This document shows positions 15,826 through 61,820 of a DNA stretch of 64,000 bases, piece by piece. A program made the position numbers and the translations under genes. The stretch covers positions 1 to 64,000 of the IMG/VR virus record IMGVR_UViG_3300046660_000513. One strand, given 5' to 3'. Numbering within the stretch: the first letter of the stretch is position 1; each line of letters opens with the position of its first letter. Source of the stretch: a virus. The notes beneath the pieces were generated by a model. That model had not been told where the DNA came from and made no database searches. It saw nothing but the letters and a program-made list of their open reading frames with translations.

Positions 15826-16758
15826 TTACGCGCTCGCCAGCTCCGCCGTCTCCAGCTCCGGCGACTCGATGGCCTTTACGTACGTCCGGAACATGGAGAG
15901 AACCTGCTTACCGACCTGCTGTACGGCCTTCATGACGTCCTCAGGGTCCTTGCCCGCCCAGGTGGCGATGTAAGGGGCGGAATAAGAGGCCGTCTCCAGT
16001 CCGTAGTACTGAGAGACCATGTAGGCGAAACTCTCGGCCACAGTCTCCGCGATACCCCGGTGCTCCCGGTACTCCGCCAGGTCCGAGACGTGGTCCGCCA
16101 GAATGTGACCGAGTTCGTGAACCAAGGTCTTGGTCTGCTGTGCAGGTGACACCCTGTCGCTCACACGCACGACCATCGCCTTGGGGTCGGTGTAGCCGTT
16201 CGCGCTGCCCGTGTTGCCGTGCTCGATGGTGTAACCGAGCTTCTCGATCTGTCCGGCGACGTCGTCCCACATTTCGGCAGGGGCCTCGCCCTGAAGGTGC
16301 TTGACAACCTTGGGACGGCTGACCGTGGGCGTGATGAAGTAGGTGGCCGCGCCCTCGTGCTGCCAAATCGGCTCCGTTTGTGAGACATCGAACTCGGCCT
16401 GGAGGCGGAAGCCGACGATCTTTGTTTTGTCTGGATTGCGCTCGTCCTTGGCCGTGATGGGGGAGGAGACGCGCAGGGACTTGGTGCCCTTCATGGGGAA
16501 TCTGCCGCGAGCCGCCCAGGCTTTCGAGGTGATCACGGCCGTTGCGTCCGGGCACTGCGAAAGGATCCAGAGCATGTTGTTGAAGGAGAACCGCGACAGC
16601 TCGGTCCCGTTCTTCTCCGTCATGGCCTTGAGGAGCTTGGGCCAGGCGTCGGAGGTGACGAGTTCCTGCACGGTGTCGGCGAGCTTCTCGTGCAGCTCGT
16701 TAGCGAGCTGCTTGGTCTTGCTGGGGGACTTGCTCGCGTAGCGCTTGGCGTAGGCCAT
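15826..16758 (-). CDS. ArdC-like antirestriction protein with zincin metallopeptidase motif
   Basis: 310 residues; ATG after GGAGATCCTGATGGCC context. The N-terminal 150 residues match the ArdC single-stranded-DNA-binding domain: FSFNNMLWILSQCPDATAV, then WAARGRFPMKGTKSLRV. The C-terminal half has the zinc site LVHELGHILADH (about 215-226) and a downstream AETVAESFAYMV helix supplying the third ligand. Family members on conjugative plasmids protect incoming DNA from restriction. It is upstream of a terminator and has its own promoter, divergent from the 16928 pair. A counter-restriction role is inferred from the family. Confidence 0.88.
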   Translation of the reverse strand: MAYAKRYASKSPSKTKQLANELHEKLADTVQELVTSDAWPKLLKAMTEKNGTELSRFSFNNMLWILSQCPDATAVITSKAWAARGRFPMKGTKSLRVSSPITAKDERNPDKTKIVGFRLQAEFDVSQTEPIWQHEGAATYFITPTVSRPKVVKHLQGEAPAEMWDDVAGQIEKLGYTIEHGNTGSANGYTDPKAMVVRVSDRVSPAQQTKTLVHELGHILADHVSDLAEYREHRGIAETVAESFAYMVSQYYGLETASYSAPYIATWAGKDPEDVMKAVQQVGKQVLSMFRTYVKAIESPELETAELASA

Positions 16759-18128: not shown

Positions 18129-18338
18129 TCAGGGGCGGGCGGTGACGAAGGTTCCCAGGTGGTTGGTGTAGATCAGCCCATCACGCTTGACGAGACGGAA
18201 GGCTCGGGCGATGGATACTGTGCTGACGTTGTAGGCCCTCGCTAGCTCTGCCTGGGTGGGGAGCTGTTGGCCTGCAACATAGGTGTTGTCGGCTATGCAG
18301 CGTCGGATCTCGTTGGCGATCTCTACGTACCTTGCCAT
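18129..18338 (-). CDS. Minimal GntR-type DNA-binding protein, leaderless
   Basis: 69 residues, a bare winged helix: MARYVEIANEIRRCIADNTYV, GQQLPTQAELARAYNVSTVS, RAFRLVKRDGLIYTNHLGTFVT. No effector or dimerisation domain is present. Its ATG is the last three bases of the promoter repeat, so the mRNA has no leader. Being both regulated by and possibly binding the repeat would make it a self-limiting master regulator; that is inference. Confidence 0.87.
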   Translation of the reverse strand: MARYVEIANEIRRCIADNTYVAGQQLPTQAELARAYNVSTVSIARAFRLVKRDGLIYTNHLGTFVTARP

Positions 18339-18353
18339 GTATCTACCCTATCA
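18336..18353 (-). promoter_or_regulatory. Promoter repeat of leaderless gene 18338
   Basis: TGATAGGGTAGATACATG on the minus strand; the final ATG is the start codon. Confidence 0.85.
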
Positions 18354-18359
18354 CGAGAA

Positions 18360-18388
18360 AGCCGCCCCAGGGATCCCCCGAGGCGGCT
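18360..18388 (-). terminator. Terminator of the endolysin gene
   Basis: AGCCGCC and GGCGGCT with a 15-base loop. Confidence 0.65.
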
Positions 18389-18425
18389 CCTCACATCCGG
18401 CAACTAGCCTCCGTCAGGCCACTTG

Positions 18426-19937
18426 CTATCCCCTGACATCGAACCCCCGCCGCCTGCCGAGGGCCTTGAGAGACGTCGCTCCGGGGTCTCCAGTGGCATC
18501 GCTGCCGGTGAGGTGCAGTACCTCGCGGCGGAAGCGGTTATACGCGTCGTCGGTCTTGGTACCCCAGGAGCCGTCCGCGTACTTCTTGTCGAGGAAGCCC
18601 TCCGCAACCAGGGCGTTTTCGACGATCTTGACATCAGCGGGGTACGTCTTGTGCCCGGTGGCCGCCGGAAGATCCTTCTTGCGGGCCGCGATGATGTTGG
18701 ACAGGTCAACGACCGGCTTCACAGGCGGCTTCGGCTTCACCGGAGGCTTCGGAACAACCGGAGCAGACCAGCGGTACGACGCCACGGCCTTGCCGCCACG
18801 CGGGTCCTGCGGGTCAGCGGTAGGCGGGCACACGCCGTCTGCGAACTTGGGGGCGAAGTAGCCAATCACACGGGGCGAGCGGCGCGGGGTGCTGTGAGAC
18901 CAAACCCCGTTGCCCTGCCCGGCGTCCGTGGATCCGGCCTTGACGGAGTTGCCACCCTTGGTGAAGACGTTGTCCGCGTCGAACCCGACGACGACCTCCG
19001 TGTGCCCGTTGCCGAAGTTGCACCAGGCTCCGATGGACGGGTACTCCGACCACTGGCCGTGCTTCTTGGCCCAGTTGGTGAAGACGACCACGTTGTCGAC
19101 CTTGGGGACGATCCCCGATAAGCCGACCTCGTTGTACATGCACCAGTCCCAGATGACGCACCAGGCGACCTTGTTCTCCCCGTACTCCTTGCCCCACGGG
19201 TTGTCGTTGTTCCAGCCGACGGCCGACTCCCACGTCTCGTAGATCTTCTCCGGGACGCTCATGACGTGGTTCAGCAGAGTCAGCCACTGCGGTACAGCCG
19301 GAGTCGGCGGAGTCGGCGGAGTCGGCGCGGCGGGGGAGGGAACCGCGAGCTTTGCCCACGCGGTGGCATCACCGTTGAACAGGTTCCGGTCGAGGCCTCC
19401 GCTGATCGCGTACTGGTGGATCACCCACGTCTTCCAGCCTGCGATGCTGGGCTTCCCCGCAGCATGGTTGGGGTCGGCGATCCACAGCGGGTAGGACCGT
19501 AGCGTCTCCGCGTCCGTCTTGGAGGCCGCCGCAAGCAGGGCGTTGAGGTAGCTGGTGTAGGAGTACACCAGGGCCTTGACGCCGGTCTTCGCCTTGATCC
19601 GGGCGAGGAACTTGAGCGCGTAGGACATCCGCTGGGCCTGGGTGCCTTCGGACGCCTCTAAGTCGAGGGCTAACAGGTCACCGGGCTTGGCCTTGGCCTT
19701 GGACAGGAAGAAGTCGGCTTCCTTGACCGGGTCCTGTGTGGGGTGGCCGAAGTGGTAGTGACCGACCTTCTTTCCTGCGGTGCGGGCGATGGTCACGAAT
19801 GCATCGTGGTCGGCATCCGCTGTGTGCTCCCCTTCGGAAGCCTTGGCGATGACGAAGGCGGCGGTTACGGCTGCGAGGGCAGCGGAGACCGTGGGTATTC
19901 CGTTGTTGTTCGAGACGTCGATACCAGATAGAGACAT
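18426..19937 (-). CDS. Endolysin: GH25 muramidase, CHAP-like and cell-wall-binding domains
   Basis: 503 residues; ATG 19937 after AAAGGACATTTCC, 26 codons inside the longest frame. Residues 3-195 are a GH25 lysozyme (GIDVSNNNG start, HYHFGHP, LLALDLEAS, YPLWIAD). After a proline linker (PTPPTPPTPAVP), residues about 225-360 look like a CHAP amidase or endopeptidase, with WCVIWDWC carrying the cysteine and GHTEVVVGF the histidine. A second proline linker precedes a peptidoglycan-binding-type domain (VKIVENALVAEGFLDKKY). Degrades host cell wall at lysis. Two TTA codons encode leucines of LLALDLE. No holin is recognisable beside it. Confidence 0.93.
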   Translation of the reverse strand: MSLSGIDVSNNNGIPTVSAALAAVTAAFVIAKASEGEHTADADHDAFVTIARTAGKKVGHYHFGHPTQDPVKEADFFLSKAKAKPGDLLALDLEASEGTQAQRMSYALKFLARIKAKTGVKALVYSYTSYLNALLAAASKTDAETLRSYPLWIADPNHAAGKPSIAGWKTWVIHQYAISGGLDRNLFNGDATAWAKLAVPSPAAPTPPTPPTPAVPQWLTLLNHVMSVPEKIYETWESAVGWNNDNPWGKEYGENKVAWCVIWDWCMYNEVGLSGIVPKVDNVVVFTNWAKKHGQWSEYPSIGAWCNFGNGHTEVVVGFDADNVFTKGGNSVKAGSTDAGQGNGVWSHSTPRRSPRVIGYFAPKFADGVCPPTADPQDPRGGKAVASYRWSAPVVPKPPVKPKPPVKPVVDLSNIIAARKKDLPAATGHKTYPADVKIVENALVAEGFLDKKYADGSWGTKTDDAYNRFRREVLHLTGSDATGDPGATSLKALGRRRGFDVRG

Positions 19938-23688: not shown

Positions 23689-24438
23689 CTAAGCGGTGAG
23701 TTTCAGGGCGTCTTGCCCCAGAGCGACCTTGCGAGCGGTAGCGGGCCACCAGCACCGTCCGCCGTGGGCGGTGGGGACCTGGTCGGCATTCAAGCCCGCT
23801 GCGATCGAGGCCCAGGTTTTTTCCCCGCCGACACGTTCTCCGATAATGCGAGCGACGACCTCGTGCGGCAGCACGGAGGGTCTGCCCAGACGAACACCGC
23901 GTGCCTTGAGAGCGGCCAGAGCCTCCCGGGTGCGGGCCTTGATGAGGTTGCGCTCCATCTCGGCGAACACGGCTTGGATCTGAAACAACGCGATGCCTCC
24001 GGGGGTGGTGAGGTCCACTTCGCCATCGGCGGTGGCCATGGACCAACCCTCTTCCTGGCACTGGGCAGCCAGGTTGAGCAGATCCTTGGCGCTGCGGGCA
24101 AGCCGGTCCACGCGCATGAACAGGAGGACCGATGAAGGACCCTGCTGCATACGCTGCAAACAGTTACTAAGCGCCTCTCGGTGCAGGGGAGGGATGGACC
24201 CGGAGACACCGTCGTCCACGAACCAACCGTCGTCGGGGATGTACAGGTTCTGTTTGGCGGCACGTTCTTCAATGCCTGCCTTCTGAGCTTCGAGTCCGGC
24301 ACCGGATTCGACCTGTTCCTCGGTGGACACTCTCAGGTAACCCAAGGCCATAGCTTTGTCTCGATGGATGGCTGTAAGGGCTCGTCGTCTGCGTCGGGGC
24401 TTACCTGGAGGTTTGTTCGATTCGGGGTGGGTGATCAT
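23689..24438 (-). CDS. Serine recombinase of resolvase/invertase size
   Basis: 249 residues. Catalytic domain: MALGYLRVSTEEQVESGAGL (the S of VST is catalytic), then LLFMRVDRLARSAKDLLNL and EMERNLIKARTREALAALKARGVRLGRP, the long E helix. The last 50 residues form a helix-turn-helix (EKTWASIAAGLNADQVP). At this size it is a resolvase/invertase, not a 450-600-residue phage integrase. A basic N-terminal tail (residues 1-29) precedes the canonical start; a later ATG is an alternative. With ParA nearby, dimer resolution of a plasmid prophage is plausible. Confidence 0.93.
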   Translation of the reverse strand: MITHPESNKPPGKPRRRRRALTAIHRDKAMALGYLRVSTEEQVESGAGLEAQKAGIEERAAKQNLYIPDDGWFVDDGVSGSIPPLHREALSNCLQRMQQGPSSVLLFMRVDRLARSAKDLLNLAAQCQEEGWSMATADGEVDLTTPGGIALFQIQAVFAEMERNLIKARTREALAALKARGVRLGRPSVLPHEVVARIIGERVGGEKTWASIAAGLNADQVPTAHGGRCWWPATARKVALGQDALKLTA

Positions 24439-29488: not shown

Positions 29489-29552
29489 GCGCCGGAAATA
29501 CGTCCCCGACGAAAAGGGAAGTTAAGTTACTTACAAGTAACTGAGCGGAACC

Positions 29553-34479: not shown

Positions 34480-34840
34480 GCACCCCCGTTGATTCGGTCG
34501 TAAGCCTTCCACGGTGAGGGCGGCTTGGTTACCCCGCGAGGGGTAGAGGCGAAAGTAACCAGGGGGTCTATCGTTAGCCTGCCTAACGTTTTCAAGATCA
34601 TCTTTTACCAAACGAATAGACGTTACTCGGACGGTACCCCAAAATTACTCGGCAAAAAGTAACCCAACTACCCTATCTGACCTGCATGTTTAAAGATCAT
34701 TACCTGGTTACCCCTGATGTATGCCTGCATGCGCGCGCACGTCATGCGCGCGGAACACAACACGTCCTTATCTGGATTTGGGGTAACCGGGAAACCGGGG
34801 GGTTGGGCCAGGATGGGGCGGGCGTCGTGAACATGATCGC
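34480..34840. other. AT-rich non-coding region with GGTTACC words at a divergent junction
   Basis: No gene. GGTTACCCC occurs at 34527 and 34707 and inverted as GGGGTAACC at 34780; related GTAACC/GGTACC words lie at 34555, 34633 and 34660. AAGATCAT is repeated (near 34591 and 34692), CATGCGCGCG is repeated near 34731 and 34743, and CGTTAG/CTAACG forms a small palindrome at 34573-34589. Iterons, low GC and a divergent gene switch suit a replication origin or a partition site. Confidence 0.5.
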
Positions 34841-38535: not shown

Positions 38536-39468
38536 GTGTCCGAAAAACTTGAGGCAGCGCTCGAATGGCTGGCAGACGGCTACGTCCTGACCAAGCTGCA
38601 CGGCGTGACGCGTCGTGGAAACTGCTCCTGTGGCGGGGGCTGCGGCAAGCGTGTAGGCAAGCATCCTGTTTTTAAGGACCCGCACGGGGAGCACGCGATC
38701 CGCACCCCCGAGCAAGCTGAGGATGCCTTCGGAAGCGGGCTCTATAACCCTGGCCTCGTGACAGGCAGTCCCACCGGCGTCGTCGTGTTGGACGTGGACA
38801 CCGACGACGGCAAGGTGGGCCGGGAGTCCCTGGAGAGGCTGGCGGCGGCGCACGGCTGGGACGATCTGGAGGCCACCCGGCAGCACCGGACTGGCGGGGG
38901 CGGGACGCAATACCTCTTCACGTATAAGGGCCCTGCGTTGAAGACAACGCTGTCGGTTCTCGGGCCGGATCTGGACTTCAAGGCGGGGGACGGCGGGGCG
39001 TTCATCGTGCTTCCTCCGTCGCGCAGTGCTAAGGGCTTGTACGAGGTGCTGTCGGACGACCCTATCCAGAAGGCCCCCAGCTGGCTCCTGAAGCTCTGTG
39101 AGAGACAGAGTGATCCGACGGGCCGTGAAGGTACCGTGCAGGCCTCCAGCGTGGCGTACACGGCTCCTCCAGACGCTGCGACGGCCCAACGCTGGGACTA
39201 CTACGCGGAGCGGGTCATCTGGGAGGCCCGGGACAAGCTCCGGGATCTCCAGACCGCCCGGAGCGGGTGGACGATGGGGATCTTTTCCGCCTGCTGCACG
39301 ATCTTCGAAATAGCTAACTCCCCCTGGAACACGGTCAGCGTCCGGGAAGCGGAGCGGCTGATCAGGCAGGTACTGCCGACCGTGACGGACGGATCTGACT
39401 TCAATCCGTGGGACGTGGTTGAGCAGGCAAAGCGCAGAACAGCGGGCAGGGGACGGCCCGCCCCCTGA
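38536..39468 (+). CDS. Prim-Pol domain protein (bifunctional DNA primase/polymerase N-terminal family)
   Basis: 310 residues. Start set at GTG 38536, eight bases after TAGGCT with no ribosome site, so it may be leaderless; the longer frame crosses the previous terminator. Motifs of the Prim-Pol family: HPVFKDPHGEHAIRTPEQAE, GVVVLDVDTDDG with the metal-binding DxD, then TGGGGTQYLFTY and DFKAGDGGAFIVLPPS with the third acidic residue. The C-terminal third is helical. No helicase domain is fused. Likely priming or repair synthesis of phage DNA. Confidence 0.88.
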   Translation: MSEKLEAALEWLADGYVLTKLHGVTRRGNCSCGGGCGKRVGKHPVFKDPHGEHAIRTPEQAEDAFGSGLYNPGLVTGSPTGVVVLDVDTDDGKVGRESLERLAAAHGWDDLEATRQHRTGGGGTQYLFTYKGPALKTTLSVLGPDLDFKAGDGGAFIVLPPSRSAKGLYEVLSDDPIQKAPSWLLKLCERQSDPTGREGTVQASSVAYTAPPDAATAQRWDYYAERVIWEARDKLRDLQTARSGWTMGIFSACCTIFEIANSPWNTVSVREAERLIRQVLPTVTDGSDFNPWDVVEQAKRRTAGRGRPAP

Positions 39469-44999: not shown

Positions 45000-45520
45000 G
45001 TTCGGGCGTCCCGCTGTTCAGGTTCCCGTTCCGGTGCTCGGTTCCAGTTCCAGATCGAAGAGGTCTGACGCGTTCGGAACGCGGGCCTTGTTCCGGTTCC
45101 ACTCGGCCTTGGCCTCCTTGAGCCGGTGGTGCGCGGTGGTCCGGGGGATCTCCGGGTGGTGGGTCTTGATCACCTTGAGGTCCACGCCGTCGATTCCGAA
45201 CTGTTCCAGAAGTTCCATCACCTGCCTGACCTGCGCTTTCTTCTTGGTCGCCCGATCCGTGATGTTCGCGGTTCCAGTTCGCGGTTCCGGTTCAGGTTGT
45301 TCCGGTTCAGGTTCCGGTTCCAGTTCAGACGGCAGTTCAGGTTCCGGTTCAGGTTCGACCCGTTCCGGTTCAGGTTCGAAGTTCCAGTTCCGATTCAACA
45401 GTTCCAGTTCCCGTTCCAGTTCCATCGGGATCCCTACGGGTTCCTCCAGGTACGGTTCCGGTTCAAGTTCAAGTTCCGGTTCGGGATCCGGCACTATGTC
45501 CGCCCCCGCCACCTGTTCCA
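45000..45520 (-). repeat. GGTTC/GGTTCC simple repeat array, mostly coding
   Basis: Dozens of GGTTC, GGTTCC and GGTTCAGG units on the plus strand, with GTTCGGAAC units extending to 44954-44990 past the stop. On the minus strand the frame reads Pro-Glu-Leu-Glu runs. Homogenised repeats such as this often vary in copy number. Confidence 0.8.
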
Positions 45521-46235
45521 GTTCCAACGCTTCCTGAACGGGGCCAGGCGCCGCCATCAGTTCCGGAACACCTGCCGGTGCCGTCTCTCCCATCCGCAGC
45601 CGCACCCGCTGGACCATCGTTGTCTTCCGGCGCCATCCTCGCCCGTGCTTGTCCTTCAGTTCCGCCCTGGCCATGAGCCGCTGGCTTTCCAGCCGCAGCC
45701 CTGTCCGGTAGGAGGTGACCTCCCACAGGACCATCCGCCTCCACAGGCGGGCCGTGGAGAACGGGTCCAGGATCCACCGGGACTTTCTCACTCGTTCCAT
45801 GCGGCGCCCGGTAACGGCTCCGATGAGTGCCCGGTATACGTGTGCGGCAATTTCTGAACAGACCACCCACAGCAGTGGGAGGGATCCGTGTCCAATCTGC
45901 GGTGCGAGACCGTCCCGGGCGGCGGAAATGTTCAGGTATACGGTCACCGCTGTGAGGGCCCACGGAACAGCCCGGACCCATCCGAGCGGCATATCGGCTC
46001 GAATCAGCAGGAGGTGGGCGAGGGAGAATACGGGGATGGCTATGTCAACGGCTACGGGGAGAATCCAGAAGGGATGAAATCCCCATTCCTGTGCTTGTTG
46101 TCCGACCGTATCGAAGGATGCGAGGAGGCCGAGTGTGCCGACGCCGAAAGCGCCAATGATCACCGTTACCAGTAGCTTGCGTTCGAAGGGCAACAAGTCG
46201 GGGATCTTGTTGTCGGGGGGCGGATCTGACGTCAT
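45018..46235 (-). CDS. DUF2637 membrane protein with acidic repeat and C-terminal helix-turn-helix-like region
   Basis: 405 residues. Residues 20-135 hold four hydrophobic helices (LLVTVIIGAFGVGTLGLLAS, ILPVAVDIAIPVFSLAHLLL, AVPWALTAVTVYLN, LPLLWVVCSEIAAHVY), the DUF2637/SpdB pattern known from Streptomyces plasmids. Then a basic stretch, an acidic EPEPELE repeat (about 240-320), and a C-terminal domain (VRQVMELLEQFG, VDLKVIKTHHPEIPRTTAHHRLKEA) that could bind DNA. Family members are linked to plasmid spread; neighbours parA and the ParB-like gene support a maintenance role. Confidence 0.85.
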   Translation of the reverse strand: MTSDPPPDNKIPDLLPFERKLLVTVIIGAFGVGTLGLLASFDTVGQQAQEWGFHPFWILPVAVDIAIPVFSLAHLLLIRADMPLGWVRAVPWALTAVTVYLNISAARDGLAPQIGHGSLPLLWVVCSEIAAHVYRALIGAVTGRRMERVRKSRWILDPFSTARLWRRMVLWEVTSYRTGLRLESQRLMARAELKDKHGRGWRRKTTMVQRVRLRMGETAPAGVPELMAAPGPVQEALELEQVAGADIVPDPEPELELEPEPYLEEPVGIPMELERELELLNRNWNFEPEPERVEPEPEPELPSELEPEPEPEQPEPEPRTGTANITDRATKKKAQVRQVMELLEQFGIDGVDLKVIKTHHPEIPRTTAHHRLKEAKAEWNRNKARVPNASDLFDLELEPSTGTGT

Positions 46236-46245
46236 TTCGCATATC

Positions 46246-46263
46246 CTTTCGGGTAGATCAAGT
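46246..46263 (+). promoter_or_regulatory. Weak reversed repeat copy upstream of gene 46235
   Basis: CTTTCGGGTAGATCAAGT keeps GGGTAGAT only. It lies between promoter and start of a leftward gene, as do the other reversed copies. Confidence 0.35.
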
Positions 46264-46269
46264 GGTGGT

Positions 46270-46278
46270 AGTCTAGCA
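46270..46278 (-). promoter_or_regulatory. -10 of gene 46235 (TAGACT class)
   Basis: On the minus strand TGCTAGACT, an extended -10 like that of the repeat but without the following GATACATC. No convincing -35. Confidence 0.5.
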
Positions 46279-46300
46279 CTTTTATGCAGGTCAGAGACGG

Positions 46301-46330
46301 CTATAGCCGCCCACTGCTGGACGGCTATAG
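46301..46330 (-). terminator. Terminator of the parA/ParB-like unit
   Basis: CTATAGCCG and CGGCTATAG around a 12-base loop. Confidence 0.72.
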
Positions 46331-46345
46331 ACCCTGATTCACCAG

Positions 46346-47029
46346 TCAGGAACGGTGCTTTTTCCGAGGAAGATCAGGAAGCCACCAGTCCAGTACCGCA
46401 TCAAGGAAATCCGACCGGGACGGGAACTCATACCCCTTCCAGAGGGTGTCAATGACAGCCAGCTCCTGCCGGGAGGGCCGGAAAGGCTGCTGTGCCGTCT
46501 GTTTGATCCTCCCGCGCGCAGACCGACGGCCCTCCACCTCCCCGAACAGACTGCCTGAATCGTCTTCATCGGGCTGGAGCCGCGCGAGGGCCCTTTCCCG
46601 GATTTTGAAGAAGGCCCCGGCGTTGTTCGCGGCATTCACAGCCCGGCGGACCACCACAGCGTTAGTGGGGGTCCGGCCCGTCTCCTGACTCTTGGCCGCC
46701 TGATACGCGTCAAACCGTTCCTGTACGTCCAAGGAGATGTTGACCGCGCACTGCATGGTCAGTTTTCCCGTCGTCCCGAGGTCCGGGAACGGGAGGGTGA
46801 TCGGGTCCGGCTGTCGGGCGCTCTCCGCCGGGACGGGTTGCGCGGGTACCAGAACGGCTTCAGGCGTCTCCGGATCGGGTACGACAGCCGGTTCCTCAGG
46901 GACGACCGGCGGAGGCGCTACAGGGGTCTCTGGAGGCTGTGCAACGCGGGGTTTCTCCCGCTGGGGCCGACGGGCGAAAGCTGCCGCCAGATCCGGATCA
47001 TCCGGGAGCCCGCCAATTCGGTCGGTCAT
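46346..47029 (-). CDS. Putative ParB-type partner of ParA
   Basis: 227 residues; ATG overlaps the parA stop by 4 bases (ATGA). A proline-rich N-terminal half (PETPVAPPPVVPEEPAVVPD) precedes a helical segment with AVNISLDVQERFDAYQAAKS, which resembles a ribbon-helix-helix, and a basic C-terminus. It is not a classical ParB but sits where the DNA-binding partner of ParA normally lies. Inferred to bind a centromere such as the repeats at 48165. Confidence 0.72.
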   Translation of the reverse strand: MTDRIGGLPDDPDLAAAFARRPQREKPRVAQPPETPVAPPPVVPEEPAVVPDPETPEAVLVPAQPVPAESARQPDPITLPFPDLGTTGKLTMQCAVNISLDVQERFDAYQAAKSQETGRTPTNAVVVRRAVNAANNAGAFFKIRERALARLQPDEDDSGSLFGEVEGRRSARGRIKQTAQQPFRPSRQELAVIDTLWKGYEFPSRSDFLDAVLDWWLPDLPRKKHRS

Positions 47030-47997
47030 GCCGCGTCCGCCTCATCGTCCAGGGCGAACCACGTCTGCACGACTTCCATCGCAAGTGACTGGTAGTCCCC
47101 GGCGAGCGCCCGGATCGACGGCAGCAGCTTGGGGTCCACATCCTTGGAGTTCCTCAGCTCCTGCGGCACCTTGCCCAGCTCACGGCACTTCACGGCCGCA
47201 GCCTCTACATGGCGGATGGCCTGATCGAACACTGGAGCGGTGCCCTGGAGATCCCGTTCCAACTGCTCCTTGATGTTCTTCTGCACCTTGGTAGCCGACG
47301 TGTTCGTGGAGAACAGGACGACACCCAGCAGCCGCAGAAGCGGGTTCAAATCCAGTGCGGTGACGAACCGTCGGGCCACGACCCGGAGCCCCTTACGGGA
47401 CGAAGGATCCGACTTGGAGGGGATGAGAACCATGTCCCCGGACGTGAGCGCCTGTAGCTGGAGAACGTCCGAGCCGGGTGCCACGTCGAGGATGATGCAG
47501 TCGAACTCCTCGCGCAGCGGGTCGATCGCAGCCGCGTACATGCCCATCCACGCGGTGCGGTCCTCGGACTCGCCCTGGGCTCCGGCGATACGCCGCTGTA
47601 CGTACAGCTCTTCAACCACGTTCTCCAGTTCGGTGCCACCCGGGACGACGTACAGGTTCGGGCGTGCGGTGCCGGTGGGGACCAGGGGCTTGCCCTCCAG
47701 GATGGCGGCAGCTTGAGCGGCGCCGTTGTCGTCGAGGGCTGATTTGGTGATGCCGAGGTCTTCGCAGTTGTTGCCCTGTTCGTCCATCTCGATGAGCAGG
47801 GTCTTTTTGCCGATGGCGGCGAGGGCTACAGCGAGAGCGGCGGCTGTGGATGATTTGCCGACGCCTCCCTTGCCGTTGACGATGACGATGATCTTGCGGA
47901 GCAGGTCGCCGTTTTCGATGAGCTGGAGTCGGCGGCGGAGCGCCTTCTTCACCGTGTCGAGCTGGACCAGCGTGATGCTGGCTTGGATGGTTGGCAT
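47026..47997 (-). CDS. parA: ParA partition ATPase
   Basis: 323 residues. Deviant Walker A motif VNGKGGVGKSSTAAALAVAL (about 41-60), Walker A' LLIEMDEQGNN, and Walker B DCIILDVAPGSDVLQLQAL. Helical N-terminal extension of 30 residues as in type Ia proteins. Moves plasmid or chromosome DNA along the nucleoid; in a phage it implies an extrachromosomal prophage. Paired with the gene at 46346. Confidence 0.93.
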   Translation of the reverse strand: MPTIQASITLVQLDTVKKALRRRLQLIENGDLLRKIIVIVNGKGGVGKSSTAAALAVALAAIGKKTLLIEMDEQGNNCEDLGITKSALDDNGAAQAAAILEGKPLVPTGTARPNLYVVPGGTELENVVEELYVQRRIAGAQGESEDRTAWMGMYAAAIDPLREEFDCIILDVAPGSDVLQLQALTSGDMVLIPSKSDPSSRKGLRVVARRFVTALDLNPLLRLLGVVLFSTNTSATKVQKNIKEQLERDLQGTAPVFDQAIRHVEAAAVKCRELGKVPQELRNSKDVDPKLLPSIRALAGDYQSLAMEVVQTWFALDDEADAA

Positions 47998-48115
47998 GGG
48001 GATGACTTCCTGTGACGGGTTGGGGTCGGGCCAGTCCCAGAGGCTACACAGGATGAGGGGAGATACAACGGTGACGGGTCGTTATGTACTCGTATGGGAG
48101 ATCCCACGCACAAAA

Positions 48116-48141
48116 AAGGCCCGGCACGGGGCCGGGCCTTC
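48116..48141 (-). terminator. Terminator of gene 48226
   Basis: AAGGCCCGGC and GCCGGGCCTT with an A-run at the left foot. Confidence 0.85.
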
Positions 48142-48164
48142 GGTGTTCGGTACGGGGTCGGCGC

Positions 48165-48208
48165 TTAGCACGCTAGTGGACACAGCCATTAGCACGGGTA
48201 TTAGCAGT
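48165..48208. repeat. Three direct repeats upstream of parA, candidate centromere
   Basis: TTAGCACG at 48165-48172 and 48189-48196, and TTAGCAGT at 48201-48208, spaced 24 and 12 bases. They lie in the 228-base gap between parA and the deaminase gene. Spacing in multiples of 12 fits binding on about one face of the helix. Confidence 0.45.
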
Positions 48209-48935: not shown

Positions 48936-49973
48936 TTACAGCCCCTCAGCGATCTTGTGCAGTTCCTGCACGGGACCGGTCTCCAGCTGGTCCGTCCACT
49001 CGGTCGGCCACTCGACTCCGGCAGCGCCACGGATGTTGCCCGCGATCGCCGCGAGGGAGTCGCTGTCCCCGTTCGAGACGGCCGCCCGCTGGAGAACCTG
49101 AACCGGCTCGTCCCAGAGACCGACGGTGCACAGCATCGCCCCGGCAAGCGCCTCGGGAGCCGTCCAGCCCTCGCCCGTGATCTGGCAGGGGTCGGAGTCT
49201 CCGGCCCATCCGTGGTTCAGGGCGTCCCTCGCGGACAGCAGGTAGCCCTTGCACAGCTCGTATCCGGCCCGCAGGTATGCCTTGCTGGAGCCGTACTCGG
49301 ACTGCCCCCACAGATCCCCGAGAACGCGGGTGGGGTAGGTGCCCGGTGCCCGGCAGATCTCGATCAACAGGTCCAGGATCTCCCGGCCTTCCATGCCATC
49401 GTAGGCGCCGAGGATTGCAGCCACCGTGAGCGCGGCCGAGGCCAGTGCTGCCGGGTGAGCGTGCGTGATGGCAGCCGACAGGTAGGCCAGGTGGATGGGG
49501 GACTCGTACAGGTCGTTGGACAGTGCGATCGGTGCGACGCGCATGTTGGCGCCGCATCCCATGGTGTTGATGTCCGTGGCGTCCTGCCAGGTGTAGCCGT
49601 CGCGCAGCATGTCGCAGGCACGCATGCAGGCGTTGCCGGGCGCCCGGTGGTTGTCAGGGTGCTGCGACCAGTAGACGTACTTACTGACCAGCTCGTCCGC
49701 GAAGCTCTCCGTGTACGTCCCGAGGTTGCTGGGTCGCATCTGAAGGAGGGCCCGGCCGGTGGCGATGGTCATCTGGGTGTCGTCGGAGATGAGTACCTTG
49801 CCGTCGGCGTCGCGGTAGCACTTGGCGTGGGGGGCGTTGTCAAAGTCGGCGGTCTGCCAGTTCCGGCCGGGAAGGAAGTTCAGGATGTCGCTGGTGCGGT
49901 TGAACTCGCGGCTGTAGCCGAGGGCGTCTCCGAGGGCGCCTCCGATAAGCGAGGAAAGGGCCTTGTCATTCAA
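48936..49973 (-). CDS. ADP-ribosylglycohydrolase
   Basis: 345 residues. Start set at TTG 49973, 7 bases after TAGGAG and right behind the promoter; the ATG frame to 50066 crosses the promoter. Family motifs: IGGALGDALGYSREFNRTSD, LISDDTQMTIATGRAL with the dinuclear-metal SDDTxM, TMGCGANMRVAPIALSN, and near the end SNGDSDSLAAIAGNIRGA. Removes ADP-ribose from proteins or nucleic acids. In a phage it could undo host or toxin ADP-ribosylation; the target is unknown. Confidence 0.93.
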   Translation of the reverse strand: MNDKALSSLIGGALGDALGYSREFNRTSDILNFLPGRNWQTADFDNAPHAKCYRDADGKVLISDDTQMTIATGRALLQMRPSNLGTYTESFADELVSKYVYWSQHPDNHRAPGNACMRACDMLRDGYTWQDATDINTMGCGANMRVAPIALSNDLYESPIHLAYLSAAITHAHPAALASAALTVAAILGAYDGMEGREILDLLIEICRAPGTYPTRVLGDLWGQSEYGSSKAYLRAGYELCKGYLLSARDALNHGWAGDSDPCQITGEGWTAPEALAGAMLCTVGLWDEPVQVLQRAAVSNGDSDSLAAIAGNIRGAAGVEWPTEWTDQLETGPVQELHKIAEGL

Positions 49974-51428: not shown

Positions 51429-51430
51429 GT

Positions 51431-51504
51431 GCCGCCGGTGGGATTCGAACCCACACTGACCGGGACTTGAATCCGGTGCCTTCTGCCAATTGGGCTACGG
51501 CGGC
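51431..51504 (-). tRNA. tRNA with CAA anticodon (leucine UUG reader)
   Basis: Full cloverleaf on the minus strand: acceptor GCCGCCG/CGGCGGC, D-arm GCC...GGC with AATTGGCAGAA, anticodon loop TTCAAGT (stem CCGGA/CCCGG, one A-C mismatch), short variable loop TCAGT, T-arm GTGGG-TTCGAAT-CCCAC, discriminator A. CCA is not encoded. A leucine tRNA normally has a long variable arm; this one is of short type, so aminoacylation identity is uncertain. Confidence 0.85.
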
Positions 51505-56734: not shown

Positions 56735-57981
56735 GCAGCGGTCTCTCCGGCGACCTGGAGGCCTTACTGCGCCTCCCCGTCGGTCAAGCGGGACCCTCCA
56801 GCACCGGACACGTCCCCACAGCCGCTGTCGGCCGGGAATGGCAGCCCGGAGTCGCATTCAACGCTGACGGGGCCATGACCGTCGTCACCGCCCCCACCAC
56901 GACCAGCCCGCAAGACCCCCAGGCCTGGAAAGCTGCCGTCGAAGAACTCGGCCTCGCAGTCCCCGAAGGCTGGACCGTCCAGCTTGCCGAAGCCAAGTAC
57001 GATCCAGCCGCCTGGCACCGGGACGCCCAGGGCGAAGAAGCCGTCACCCGGCCGGTATGGCGGCTGAAGTTCCGGGTTGCTCCGTCCTCTCTGGCCGGGT
57101 ACGGCGCGGAGGATGTCGCGACGATGGTTCGGGACGCCATGCGCATCAAACGCACCCCACGGCCCCCTGTAGCCCCGTCTCGGGGCCTTGTAGTCGCCTA
57201 CTCCGACCCCCAGACGGGCAAAGTCGACCGCAGGGGCGGCACGCCAGAGCTGATCGCCCGCATCGCGGAGAAGTTCGACCGGCTCCAGGACCACGTCAGA
57301 GACCTCAAGACCCTCGGCCGTCCGGTGGACTCCGCCTACTGGATGGATGCCGGGGACTGCGTCGAAGGTCAGCAGAACGTCGCCTCGCAGCTTGCCACGA
57401 ACGATCTGACCATGACGGAAATGGTCCGGCTGCACCGCAGGCTGACGTTCGATGGACTGTCTCGGCTGGCCCGGCAGTTCGACTCCGTAACGGCTGCGGT
57501 GTGCGCGTCCAACCACGCCCAGCACCGCATCAACGGCAAGGTCGTCGGACCGCCGTCCGACGACTGGGGCATCGAGACGATGCAGCAGGTTGCCGACGCC
57601 TTCAACTGCAACCCGGACTCCTTCGGTCACGTCAAGTTCATCCTGCCTGAGAAATGGGAGGAGACCGTGAGCGTGGACGTCGCCGGAACAGTCGTAGGTC
57701 TTTCCCACGGTCACCAGGTGCGTGGTCCCGGCAAGGTTGTGGACTGGTGGCGCGGCCAGACGTTCGGAGAGCAGCCGGTAGCCGCCGCGAAAATCCTTCT
57801 GACCGGGCATTTCCACCACTTCCGGGCGGAAGAGGTCGGCTCCGGCAAGCTGTGGGTACAAGCCCCGGCCCTGGACAACGGGTCTTCCTGGTACGCCAAT
57901 CGCACCGGCGACGACTCCCGGGCGGGTCTGCTGGTGTTCTCCGTAGGTGCGGACGGCTGGTCCGACCTTGTCATTCTCTGA
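56731..57981 (+). CDS. Calcineurin-like metallophosphoesterase
   Basis: 416 residues from a GTG overlapping the previous stop; the longer frame from 56407 covers that gene in another frame. The N-terminal 150 residues are unassigned. The phosphoesterase motifs are GLVVAYSDPQTGK, YWMDAGDCVEG, VCASNHAQHR (GNH-type), GLSHGHQVRG and LLTGHFHHF, which supply the metal ligands of the MRE11/calcineurin fold. Probably a DNA-processing nuclease or phosphatase of the packaging region. TTA is codon 12. Confidence 0.9.
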   Translation: MSSGLSGDLEALLRLPVGQAGPSSTGHVPTAAVGREWQPGVAFNADGAMTVVTAPTTTSPQDPQAWKAAVEELGLAVPEGWTVQLAEAKYDPAAWHRDAQGEEAVTRPVWRLKFRVAPSSLAGYGAEDVATMVRDAMRIKRTPRPPVAPSRGLVVAYSDPQTGKVDRRGGTPELIARIAEKFDRLQDHVRDLKTLGRPVDSAYWMDAGDCVEGQQNVASQLATNDLTMTEMVRLHRRLTFDGLSRLARQFDSVTAAVCASNHAQHRINGKVVGPPSDDWGIETMQQVADAFNCNPDSFGHVKFILPEKWEETVSVDVAGTVVGLSHGHQVRGPGKVVDWWRGQTFGEQPVAAAKILLTGHFHHFRAEEVGSGKLWVQAPALDNGSSWYANRTGDDSRAGLLVFSVGADGWSDLVIL

Positions 57982-57995
57982 GAGGGGTATCCGCT

Positions 57996-58325
57996 GTGTC
58001 TCATGACGACGCTGAATCCGAGGGCGAAGAGCTGGCGCTCCCTCCGGGGATGCTGCCCCTGATCCAGATCCAGGAACCGGAGGGCGACGCACTTCGGTGG
58101 ACCCCCACCACGTTCTTGATTGACCTGTTCATGGCGTTCGCCGGGGTGCTGGAAGCCATCGCCGGTTTCTACGGAGACCAGGCACGCTCCCTCGCCGCGC
58201 GGGCCTCCCTCAAGGAAGAGCTGAAGGACCGGGACATCCGGCAGCGCATCAAGACGGAGGAACGTCTCCGGATGCAGCTGCACACCCTGGAGGACATCTC
58301 GTACTTACCCGAGGCCCAAGAGTGA
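57996..58325 (+). CDS. Hypothetical protein, 109 residues
   Basis: GTG 57996 after GAGAGGGGTATCCGCT. Acidic start (SHDDAESEGEELALPPGMLP), a hydrophobic helix TFLIDLFMAFAGVLEAIAGF, then a charged helix (SLKEELKDRDIRQRIKTEER). Between phosphoesterase and terL. Function unknown; a TTA lies near its end. Confidence 0.74.
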   Translation: MSHDDAESEGEELALPPGMLPLIQIQEPEGDALRWTPTTFLIDLFMAFAGVLEAIAGFYGDQARSLAARASLKEELKDRDIRQRIKTEERLRMQLHTLEDISYLPEAQE

Positions 58326-58499: not shown

Positions 58500-60206
58500 G
58501 TGGCGCGTAACGCATGGGCGGACAGACTCGCCACGCTCTACGAATTACAGGCGAAAAAGGACTCCCACCGGAACCCCGCCGTATGGGTAAACGACATCCT
58601 CGGCGAAGACATGTGGTCCATGCAGACCGCCATTTGCGAGAGTGTCCGGGACCACCGATTCACAGCCGTCCAGTCCTGCCACGCCGCAGGCAAGTCCCAC
58701 CTTGCCTCCCGCCTCTCAGCCTGGTGGATCGCCACCACACCCATGGAAGAAGTCTTCCTCGTCACCACGGCGCCCACCGCCCGTCAGGTGGCCTCCATCC
58801 TCTGGCGCTATATCCAGCGCGCCCACAACCTCGCCAAAGAGCGCGGATTCACCATCCCCGGCCAGATCCTCTCCTCGCCGATCCCGTCCTGGAAAATCAA
58901 CGGTGAACTAGTCGGCATCGGGCAGAAGCCGCCGGACAAGGAAGACTCGGCCTTCCAGGGTTTCCACGCCGAAAAGATCCTCGTTGTCATCGACGAAGCG
59001 TGCGGCGTCGACCGGTCCATCTGGGACGCCGTGGACTCCCTCGTCACCAACGAGTCGTCCCGGGTCCTCGCCATCGGGAACCCCACCGACCCCGCGTCAC
59101 ACTTCCGGCAGGTGTGCTCCCCTGAGTCCCCGCTAGGCGAGAAATGGAACAAGATCCGCATCGACGCCCTGCGGTCCCCGCTGATGACCGAAGAGGCCTG
59201 CTCCCGGTACCCCCGCCTGGTGGAGTACATGAAGGAGGAAGGGATCCCCTTCGCCACCGAAGAGGTCTCCCCGACGCTCCAGAAGACGCTGGTGGGCCCG
59301 ACCTGGGTCTATGAATCCATGGTGGGCTGGGGCAAAGACTCCAGCCTGTTCAAGTCCAAAGTGCGGGCCGAGTTCCCCGAAACGTCCTCCGAGGGCGTTA
59401 TCCCGCTGGCCTGGGCAGAAGCCGCCATGGCCCGGTGGGAGAAATGGCGGGACGGGACCTACATCATCGACCCGGACACCGAAGAACCCGTGTGCCTGAT
59501 CGAACCGCGCGCCCAGCAGATCGGCGAGATCGTCATCGGTGCGGACATCTCCGACGGCGGCGAGGATGAGACAGTCGCCGCGATCCGGCAGGGCGAGGTG
59601 ATCCGTGAACTGATCGCGTTCCCCTCCAAGGACCCGCTGACCACCGCAGACGACCTCCAGGTGATCGCGGCCAAGCACGGGGCCCCGACGAACGCCAAGT
59701 ACATCGTGGACGGTATCGGCGTCGGCTCCGGTGTCGTGGCCAAGCTGCGCCGGGACTCCCAGGACACGTACGCGTTCATCGCGGCGGCCAACAGCGGTCG
59801 CAAGGACACCACCCAGAAAATGTCGTTCATCAACGACAGGGCGGCGGCCTGGTGGAACCTGCGCGAGATTCTGAACCCGGCCCGTAAGGGCGGCGCTGTT
59901 GCCGCGTTCCCCCGGGACGACAAGCTGCTTGCGGAACTGACCTGCCCCCGGTTCGACACACAGCCCGGTACCCCGAAGTACAAAATCGAGAAGAAGGAAG
60001 ACATCAGAACCCGGCTGGGGCGGTCGACCGACCGGGCAGACGCCGTGATTCAGGCGTTCTGGCTGCCTTCTGCGGTACCGGGCCCTGAGGAATTGAAGGA
60101 CAACGCCTGGAAGGCTTCCGAGGAACGCTACATCGGCAACGATGATTCAGAGGCCGTGGTGGAAAAGTGGGATACGGCCTCGGATATGGAACTCTCAGGC
60201 TGGTAA
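58500..60206 (+). CDS. terL: Terminase large subunit
   Basis: 568 residues from GTG 58500 after AAGAGGATAAGGC. ATPase: Walker A-like SCHAAGKSHLASRL (about 59-72), adenine-binding TTAPTARQVASILWRY, Walker B ILVVIDEACGVD near 160. Nuclease: IVIGADISDGGEDETVAAIR with the first metal aspartate, then YIVDGIGVGSGVV and TDRADAVIQAFW with the last aspartate. Cuts and pumps phage DNA into the prohead. Codon 16 is TTA. Confidence 0.95.
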   Translation: MARNAWADRLATLYELQAKKDSHRNPAVWVNDILGEDMWSMQTAICESVRDHRFTAVQSCHAAGKSHLASRLSAWWIATTPMEEVFLVTTAPTARQVASILWRYIQRAHNLAKERGFTIPGQILSSPIPSWKINGELVGIGQKPPDKEDSAFQGFHAEKILVVIDEACGVDRSIWDAVDSLVTNESSRVLAIGNPTDPASHFRQVCSPESPLGEKWNKIRIDALRSPLMTEEACSRYPRLVEYMKEEGIPFATEEVSPTLQKTLVGPTWVYESMVGWGKDSSLFKSKVRAEFPETSSEGVIPLAWAEAAMARWEKWRDGTYIIDPDTEEPVCLIEPRAQQIGEIVIGADISDGGEDETVAAIRQGEVIRELIAFPSKDPLTTADDLQVIAAKHGAPTNAKYIVDGIGVGSGVVAKLRRDSQDTYAFIAAANSGRKDTTQKMSFINDRAAAWWNLREILNPARKGGAVAAFPRDDKLLAELTCPRFDTQPGTPKYKIEKKEDIRTRLGRSTDRADAVIQAFWLPSAVPGPEELKDNAWKASEERYIGNDDSEAVVEKWDTASDMELSGW

Positions 60207-60263: not shown

Positions 60264-61820
60264 GTGGCGGATGAGCAGTTAAATGGCAGCGACCTGCCTG
60301 CGGGCAGCGCGCTTGCCAATTATGCCTCGGACTACCTGAACAAACCCCTGACCAAGACCGTCAACGGCGCCCCTGATGTAATCCTGGACGCCGAAGAAGG
60401 CAGCCTCTACACCTGGGCCGACTCCCTCGCCGCATCGTGGTCCGGCATACCCGGACGCATCCTCCTCGACGAGAATGAATTCGAAAGCCTCTCGTTCGAT
60501 GAAATGCTCAGCCGGGACGGCAAGGCCCGCACCATTCAGCAGGTGCTCACCCTGCCCATCCGCTCCGCCCCGTGGAAAATCCTTCCGGGTCCCGGAGACA
60601 GCGGAGAGGCCGCCTTCGTACAGGCCGCGCTGACCAAGCCCGCCAACCAGGGGGGTATGAAGACCCCGATGCGGCTGCTCATCGCCCAGGCACTGTCCGC
60701 GCGCACGAACCGGAAAGCCTGTTTCGAGAAGGTCTTCACCGAACGGGACGGCAAGATCGTCTACGAGCGCCTCGCGTTCCGGCCCTCCCCGACGACAGCC
60801 ATCGCCCGCGACCCGAAGACAGGGGCTTTCCGGGGGTTCCGGCAGCGCCCCGTAGCTGTGGGCGGTGAGATCTGGCCGGACATCTGGATCGACATCCCCG
60901 CGCAGTACTCCTGGGTGCACCTGAACAACCAGCACATCAACGCCGCGCGCGGGCACTCCGACATGGAACTGATCTACTGGCTGCACGACAAGAAGCAGAA
61001 AGTGCTGTTCCTTTGGGCGACGTTCCTGGAGGCGAACGCGCTCGGCCGCTACGTGGTGCAGGCTGAGGATGAGACTCGGGCCAAGCAGTACGCACAGGCC
61101 CTGCGGTACGTCAAAAACGGCGGTGTCCTCGGCACTTCCAATGAGATCAAGGTAGAAACCCTGGAGCTGGGCACCGGTGCGGCCGGGCTGTTCAAGGACT
61201 TCATCGACTACCTGGACAACCAGATGGCGGCCTCGGTCCTCGCGGGGTTCACCAACCTCCCGGACAGTCCCGGCGGTTCCTACGCGCTGTCCAAAGACCA
61301 GTCCGACTTCTTCCTCCAGTCCCTCACAGGTACCGCCAAGGAGCTGGCAGAGTCCATCACGAACTACGTGATCGCCGACCTGGTGATGTACAACTACGGG
61401 CCGAAGGGCGTTTGCCCGACCTTTGAGTTCGGTCCGCTGTCTGAGGGCGACTTGGAGACGGTCAAGGCGCTGCTGCTCGGATTCGGCACAACGCCGACGG
61501 AACTCCGGGTGCCGCAGGCATTCATGACCGAGCTGACCAAGATGATGGGCACCTATCTTGACATGCCCATGGATGAGGTCAACAAGGAATTCCAGCAGCT
61601 GGAAGAGCGCATCGACCAGCGAATGGACCTGGAGCTGGAGACAAAGAAGGCCGGTCTCGATGCCCAGAAGCAGATGGCCGCGCAGGGTGGTCCTCAGGCC
61701 GGAGCTGCGGTAGGCGCCGCGAATCAGCAGAAAAAAGCTGAGATGGCGAAGGCCGGGGCCAAGATCAACAAGGCTGCACAGATGGTCAAGCAAAAGGCCG
61801 CAGCCGCCAAGGGCAAATAA
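60264..61820 (+). CDS. Portal protein (DUF935/Mu gp29-like)
   Basis: 518 residues from GTG 60264 after GGGGAGCACC. Typical order: NEFESLSFDEMLSRDGKART, QQVLTLPIRSAPWKILPG, DMELIYWLHDKKQKVLFLW, then NQMAASVLAGFTNLPDSPGG and a C-terminal helical, Lys/Ala-rich tail. Follows terL and precedes a MuF-like gene, the standard head-gene order. Forms the DNA entry vertex. Codon 6 is TTA. Confidence 0.93.
   Translation: MADEQLNGSDLPAGSALANYASDYLNKPLTKTVNGAPDVILDAEEGSLYTWADSLAASWSGIPGRILLDENEFESLSFDEMLSRDGKARTIQQVLTLPIRSAPWKILPGPGDSGEAAFVQAALTKPANQGGMKTPMRLLIAQALSARTNRKACFEKVFTERDGKIVYERLAFRPSPTTAIARDPKTGAFRGFRQRPVAVGGEIWPDIWIDIPAQYSWVHLNNQHINAARGHSDMELIYWLHDKKQKVLFLWATFLEANALGRYVVQAEDETRAKQYAQALRYVKNGGVLGTSNEIKVETLELGTGAAGLFKDFIDYLDNQMAASVLAGFTNLPDSPGGSYALSKDQSDFFLQSLTGTAKELAESITNYVIADLVMYNYGPKGVCPTFEFGPLSEGDLETVKALLLGFGTTPTELRVPQAFMTELTKMMGTYLDMPMDEVNKEFQQLEERIDQRMDLELETKKAGLDAQKQMAAQGGPQAGAAVGAANQQKKAEMAKAGAKINKAAQMVKQKAAAAKGK

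Follow-up and report, generated by a model that had tools for sequence, protein, structure and literature searches.

A probable ParA-type partition cassette on a large actinobacterial tailed phage and its proposed role in plasmid-like inheritance of the prophage

Introduction

What is the gene for a ParA ATPase doing on the genome of a tailed phage from soil? The question is raised by a leftward locus at 45018-48208 in the first 64,000 bases (the window, which is the whole stretch analysed) of the 76,251-bp IMG/VR record IMGVR_UViG_3300046660_000513, called G000 here, which is without end repeats. A first-pass annotation of the window had proposed a Streptomyces prophage that replicates as a plasmid and carries its own segregation system. 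We compared G000 with related sequences, G001-G007, of which G001 is 124,939 bp long, and with plasmid records; L-numbers denote loci from the compared elements. Our reading, to which we give a probability of roughly 0.8, is that the locus holds a type I (ParA) partition cassette that lets an actinobacterial tailed-phage prophage of about 125 kb be inherited as a low-copy plasmid. It draws on what was observed of the gene pair, the overlap and the co-occurrence of its two genes, the iterons, the swap of a known parAB locus for the cassette and the phage context.

Results

ParA and its partner form a conserved pair

The core of the locus consists of two genes:

47026-47997, minus strand: parA, 323 aa, ParA ATPase of the deviant Walker type
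46346-47029, minus strand: partner gene, putative centromere-binding protein, 227 aa

The first gene is a clear ParA ATPase, at the place and in the leftward direction first annotated (PF13614, E 4e-26; PHROG ParA-like partition protein, E 1e-38). The protein has an N-terminal extension of about 35 residues and is without a large N-terminal helix-turn-helix (HTH) domain. Its deviant Walker A box, KGGVGKSS, which includes the signature lysine, is invariant across 10 aligned ParA relatives, and identity to the relatives runs from 63 to 97%. The first 4 bp of the partner gene are also the last 4 bp of parA, and the same overlap occurs in every close relative with both genes complete; the coupling seen in the first-pass annotation is thus borne out, while the DNA binding ascribed to the partner stays putative. 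Pfam, PHROG and NCBIfam gave no family match for the partner, whose assignment draws on the parA overlap, its AlphaFold2 fold and weak Foldseek matches. Because 19 of 19 PLSDB records with a ParA at 64-68% identity also carry the partner (20 records in all), the two are, judged by their co-occurrence, a real pair.

The pair takes the place of a known parAB locus

The pair is present in G001, G002, G006 and G007, in CP109516, NZ_CP107843 and pRVR1, and in contigs of Streptomyces, Actinacidiphila and Nocardia; in addition, the beginning of this parA is found on G003. CP109516 and NZ_CP107843 are complete circular Streptomyces plasmid records with virion genes as well as the cassette, and the ends of G002, G006 and G007 are direct repeats of each other, as in closed circles. 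The partner is absent from 50,697 phage records, in which ParA has only distant matches (28-29% identity), and a megablast of the cassette locus against phages gave no match. Few genes of G000 and G001 are common to the other cassette elements (parA, the partner, DUF2637, a lysin, a tail-fibre-like gene and a few small genes). With so little else shared, the pair looks like a portable maintenance module.

The strongest functional argument comes from CP109516, which is closely related to the plasmid-phage pZL12 (GQ919031). The alignment of CP109516 with pZL12 is intact up to 27334/8451 and resumes at 29536/10408, the break falling exactly at the par locus. Between the breakpoints pZL12 has a ParA and an HTH-type ParB, and CP109516 has ParA and the partner. 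Since parAB is swapped for the cassette at one locus, we argue that the two do the same job. Hence, the cassette is very probably a partition system.

Two decisions about the compared elements should be recorded. pRVR1 was rejected as a phage-plasmid: it is linear, its genes include pilus- and transfer-type ones, and the terminase search did not match it. The negative PHROG terminase result for CP109516 was not used, because the model misses this gene though the annotation lists a terminase family protein. Separately, a set of Streptomyces plasmid records, 125-133 kb long and encoding a distant terminase, seems to represent a further lineage of phage-plasmids; one of them, NZ_CP108441, has annotated portal, capsid and ParA/ParB genes.

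The partner is predicted to have two ribbon-helix-helix units

In the AlphaFold2 model of the partner, a strand-helix-helix arrangement occurs twice, at residues 94-137 and 178-216, with a block pLDDT of about 89-94 in the cores; the N-terminal third is disordered. Pfam finds no ParB_N or HTH_ParB domain in the partner, while the ParB of pZL12 does match HTH_ParB, and a comparison with PDB sequences matched nothing meaningful. Foldseek returned weak matches that agree in direction, with chains of the F relaxosome, AcaB and VirC2 at the top. The model thus predicts a single-chain tandem ribbon-helix-helix (RHH) protein.

In-phase iterons upstream of parA are the likely centromere

Upstream of parA lies a short array:

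48159-48206, minus strand: candidate centromere/operator, four in-phase 12-bp iterons, TGCTAATACCCG TGCTAATGGCTG TGTCCACTAGCG TGCTAAGCGCCG

In-phase 12-bp units with the core GCTA stand upstream of parA in every close relative. When a matrix trained without the tested group was applied to the whole element, the array upstream of parA ranked first genome-wide in six of six elements (G000, G001, CP109516, NZ_CP107843, pRVR1 and G002); in G000 it scores 11.6 bits, against 5.8 bits for the runner-up in the whole record. Five phased units are present in G001, and five such units occupy the same place in the independent member G003. Compared with dinucleotide shuffles, CTA recurs at 12 bp in excess in 13 of 14 close relatives (p 0.001-0.03). 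In a motif-blind lag test, most close relatives show 12 or 24 as one of their best lags, the signal being weak in G000 and G001 and missing in L034. From sequence, then, the iterons at 48159-48206 are likely the centromere.

Distant ParA cassettes from Arthrobacter and Pseudokineococcus (L037-L044) have a smaller partner of about 150 aa and a direct-repeat period that is mostly 8 bp, not 12.

Taking the partner and the iterons together, we lean towards regarding the cassette as a distinct actinobacterial subclass of type I systems. In such a subclass, a centromere-binding protein with two RHH units in one chain would read 12-bp iterons, and the cassette would pass from one phage-plasmid or plasmid to another unrelated one, where it can occupy the very locus of an HTH-ParB system.

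The cassette lies on a fragment of a tailed-phage genome of about 125 kb

The virion genes stand on the same 76-kb record as the ParA pair:

58500-60206, plus strand: large terminase
60264-61820, plus strand: portal protein

The terminase (PHROG terminase large subunit, E 5e-31; about 38% identity to that of Streptomyces phage Stuff) and the portal gene (PHROG portal, E 8e-35), at 58.5-61.8 kb, mark the replicon as a tailed phage. G001 is colinear with all of G000, at a DNA identity of mostly 70-88%, and the alignment wraps past the ends of G000: positions 434-970 of G000 correspond to 124105-124626 of G001, and G000 from 2316 onward corresponds to G001 from 494 onward. This makes the genome about 125 kb long and either circular or circularly permuted, with G000 a 76-kb fragment of it. 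A further record, G004, agrees with G000 over 58719-76251 at 99.98% identity; it adds about 32 kb downstream, so that G000 and G004 cover about 108 kb of the phage and leave about 17 kb uncovered.

The recombinase fits multimer resolution better than integration

The absence of an integrase had been taken as a sign of a plasmid prophage. The enzyme on which that argument turned is present as described:

23689-24351, minus strand: small serine recombinase, 220 aa, with PF00239 as its only domain (E 3.6e-34)

No tyrosine integrase was found in the 76,251-bp record or in the overlapping G004, and the only serine enzyme in G000 is this small one, no large serine integrase being found there. The statement thus holds for the record and G004, about 108 of about 125 kb; as evidence for a plasmid prophage it is weak, because G001, G005 and the plasmids CP109516, NZ_CP107843 and pZL12 carry a tyrosine recombinase. 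The flanks of the serine gene in G000 (23258 and 24517) match G001 at 18292 and 19408, which enclose the tyrosine enzyme, and the matching interval in G005 holds one as well:

18289-19353 of G001: tyrosine recombinase
57273-58175 of G005: tyrosine recombinase

These tyrosine enzymes, together with the 17 kb outside G000 and G004, lend something to the idea that the phage integrates into the chromosome by site-specific recombination and carries the ParA pair as a mere passenger or as a second means of stabilisation. We hold this unlikely. The 220-aa serine enzyme is too small for a large serine integrase, and relatives of the G001 tyrosine recombinase sit on CP109516, pZL12, G002, G006 and G007, each of them either a circular record or one with the end repeats of a closed circle. 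A search for attB with 1.5 kb around the recombinase in 150 Streptomyces genomes gave only short scattered matches of 75-96%, which we took as noise and which show no consistent attB-like identity, a result compatible with a short attachment core. The single tRNA gene noted in the window, tRNA-Leu (CAA) at 51429-51504, is far from the recombinase and so is not an obvious attachment site. Since unlike recombinases are exchanged at one place on circular elements, multimer resolution fits better than integration, and the recombinase, serine here and tyrosine in relatives, probably resolves multimers.

DUF2637 is a neighbour, and transfer is a poor explanation

On the other side of the partner lie:

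46299-46331, minus strand: inverted repeat CTATAGCC...GGCTATAG within the gap of 110 bp that separates DUF2637 from the partner
45018-46235, minus strand: DUF2637 membrane protein (PF10935, E 6.8e-15) with an acidic linker and a C-terminal HTH-like tail

This gene had been counted with parA and the partner as one leftward block. All three genes do lie on the minus strand where they were first placed, and the end given for the block, 48208, lies at the edge of the iteron array, which the first-pass annotation had not named; the single unit fails, as the gap with its inverted repeat parts DUF2637 from the partner in G000 and the genes are unlinked in other elements. DUF2637 is 55 kb from parA in CP109516, is far from it also in NZ_CP107843 and G007, and is kept in G005, where parA was not found. 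We therefore rejected it as part of the partition unit; it is a neighbour and, from its placement, probably separate. Its tail looks HTH-like by eye in G000, CP109516 and NZ_CP107843.

DUF2637 also enters a different explanation, in which it and the ParA pair serve DNA transfer or cell-pole positioning, in the manner of VirC1/VirC2, and not segregation. VirC2 and the F relaxosome chains among the top Foldseek matches agree with this, as does a transfer ATPase gene a few genes away from DUF2637 in NZ_CP107843. That ATPase, however, has no homologue among the G000 and G001 genes compared, DUF2637 is unlinked to parA elsewhere, and the cassette takes the place of a canonical parAB in the pZL12 relative. 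We consider a transfer role very improbable.

Points against plasmid inheritance

Several results weigh against partition and plasmid inheritance. The iteron array of G000 has only four units, one of them poor, and its own CTA-at-12-bp test against dinucleotide shuffles is not significant alone (p 0.07). The fold comparison for the partner is weak (best Foldseek E 0.047), and ParA-like pairs can have other roles, VirC1/VirC2 acting in DNA transfer (PMC8406263). The relative G005 is without parA in its 89 kb available. No plasmid replication initiator (Rep) was recognised in the part of the proteins that was scanned, which does include one that may serve in replication of the phage or the prophage:

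38536-39468, plus strand: Prim-Pol primase-polymerase (PF09250, E 1.6e-20)

Finally, a terminase search of 393 Streptomyces genomes found no lysogen of the phage or of a close relative, its hits being three distant matches of 41-45% identity. A Streptomyces host, as first proposed, is plausible, although no terminase there comes closer than 45%.

The missing lysogen and G005 would also suit a lytic phage that acquired a plasmid cassette with no role in its life cycle, as would the large size of the phage and the polymerase, thymidylate synthase and recombination genes of its own in G001. This too seems to us improbable, to much the same degree as integration: the cassette is intact in both G000 and G001, whose ParA proteins are 97% identical against about 70-88% for most of the DNA, and the iterons are retained in G001 and G003. 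Taken together, the results leave partition and plasmid inheritance as the reading that we prefer, with the prophage very probably kept extrachromosomal on this analysis. The first-pass proposal thus survives as to a ParA partition system on a tailed phage; its plasmid state would follow from the presence of the cassette on circular Streptomyces plasmids with virion genes, and not from DUF2637 or a missing integrase.

Other features of the phage

Two further sites lie between the iterons and parA:

48118-48133, minus strand: intrinsic terminator-like hairpin, kept in G001 and G003
48041-48053, minus strand: conserved TGTGTAG element; the parA start lies about 44 bp downstream

The hairpin probably ends the upstream dCMP deaminase unit. 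The TGTGTAG element, which visual inspection shows ahead of parA in most relatives, is possibly the -10 region of parA; no match to the sigma-70 consensus was found.

Elsewhere, just past the window at 64136-69655 of the record (L002:4137-9656), a 1,839-aa protein between the portal and capsid genes has a C-terminal ADP-ribosyltransferase domain (PF03496, E 5.5e-11), and the same phage encodes an ADP-ribosylglycohydrolase (PF03747) at 48936-49973. The product of 15826-16758, whose N-terminal domain is of the ArdC type and which also has an IrrE-like metallopeptidase domain, is possibly an anti-restriction protein. A 170-bp direct repeat of 82% identity occurs 37 kb apart in the record, at 34571-34736 and 71949-72118, with related copies in G001. 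The DNA polymerase at 98317-100335 of G001 (L150:317-2335) is closest to the aminoadenine-incorporating DpoZ family, at 303 bits, under the cut-off of 350; the idea of a Z-genome was dropped, as no PurZ-like (adenylosuccinate-synthetase-like) gene was found in G000, G001, G004 or G005.

Discussion

In the working that we propose, the partner would use its two RHH units to bind the 12-bp iterons that precede parA, build the partition complex on them and probably repress parA as well. Its flexible N-terminal tail would stimulate ATP-bound ParA on the nucleoid, whereby sister copies would be pulled apart, and a separate site-specific recombinase would probably resolve multimers. We infer DNA binding, stimulation of the ATPase, autoregulation, the plasmid state of this phage and the role of the recombinase.

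A 2020 study knew actinobacterial extrachromosomal prophages almost only from cluster A, with pZL12, a characterised plasmid-phage, as the exception (PMC7157519). The present case would add an unrelated phage group of about 125 kb. In one BLAST survey of the partition types of plasmids, the RHH references were pB171 and pSM19035 (PMC13245405); with the partner outside Pfam, PHROGs and NCBIfam, such a survey could well miss it. The small cassette could also yield stable Streptomyces vectors.

Among known systems, pZL12 and CP109516 are alike in being tailed phages with partition genes and a tyrosine recombinase, and CP109516 has this very cassette at its par locus; pZL12 differs in pairing its ParA with an HTH-type ParB, in its size of about 90 kb and in its DNA, which is scarcely similar to that of the present phage. 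Cluster A actinophages with parABS instead of an integrase replicate extrachromosomally, the ParB of RedRock reading 8-bp direct repeats (PMC7157519). Such prophages (RedRock, Alma, Miko) likewise combine a partition cassette on an actinobacterial tailed phage with a direct-repeat parS, and theirs are extrachromosomal. The parS of RedRock, however, has eight 8-bp repeats in place of 12-bp iterons, and in cluster A the integration-cassette locus is where parABS is found, whereas here the recombinase is elsewhere and the genome is about 125 kb. The 8-bp period of the distant Arthrobacter and Pseudokineococcus cassettes equals the repeat size of RedRock parS (PMC7157519).

VirC1/VirC2 of Agrobacterium Ti plasmids also join a ParA-like ATPase to an RHH partner, and VirC2 is among the top fold matches; that match is weak (E 0.73), and the pair acts in DNA transfer. 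The RHH-ParB type I systems (pB171 ParA/ParB, pSM19035 delta/omega, TP228 ParF/ParG) share with the present one a ParA without a large HTH domain, an RHH partner, predicted here, and a centromere repeat array upstream of parA. Compared with them, our ParA is longer (323 aa), and the partner is predicted to have two RHH units in one chain and a long disordered N-terminus and has no detectable sequence match to solved structures. Phage-borne partition cassettes of type I thus have precedents; what is new here is the partner and the repeat unit.

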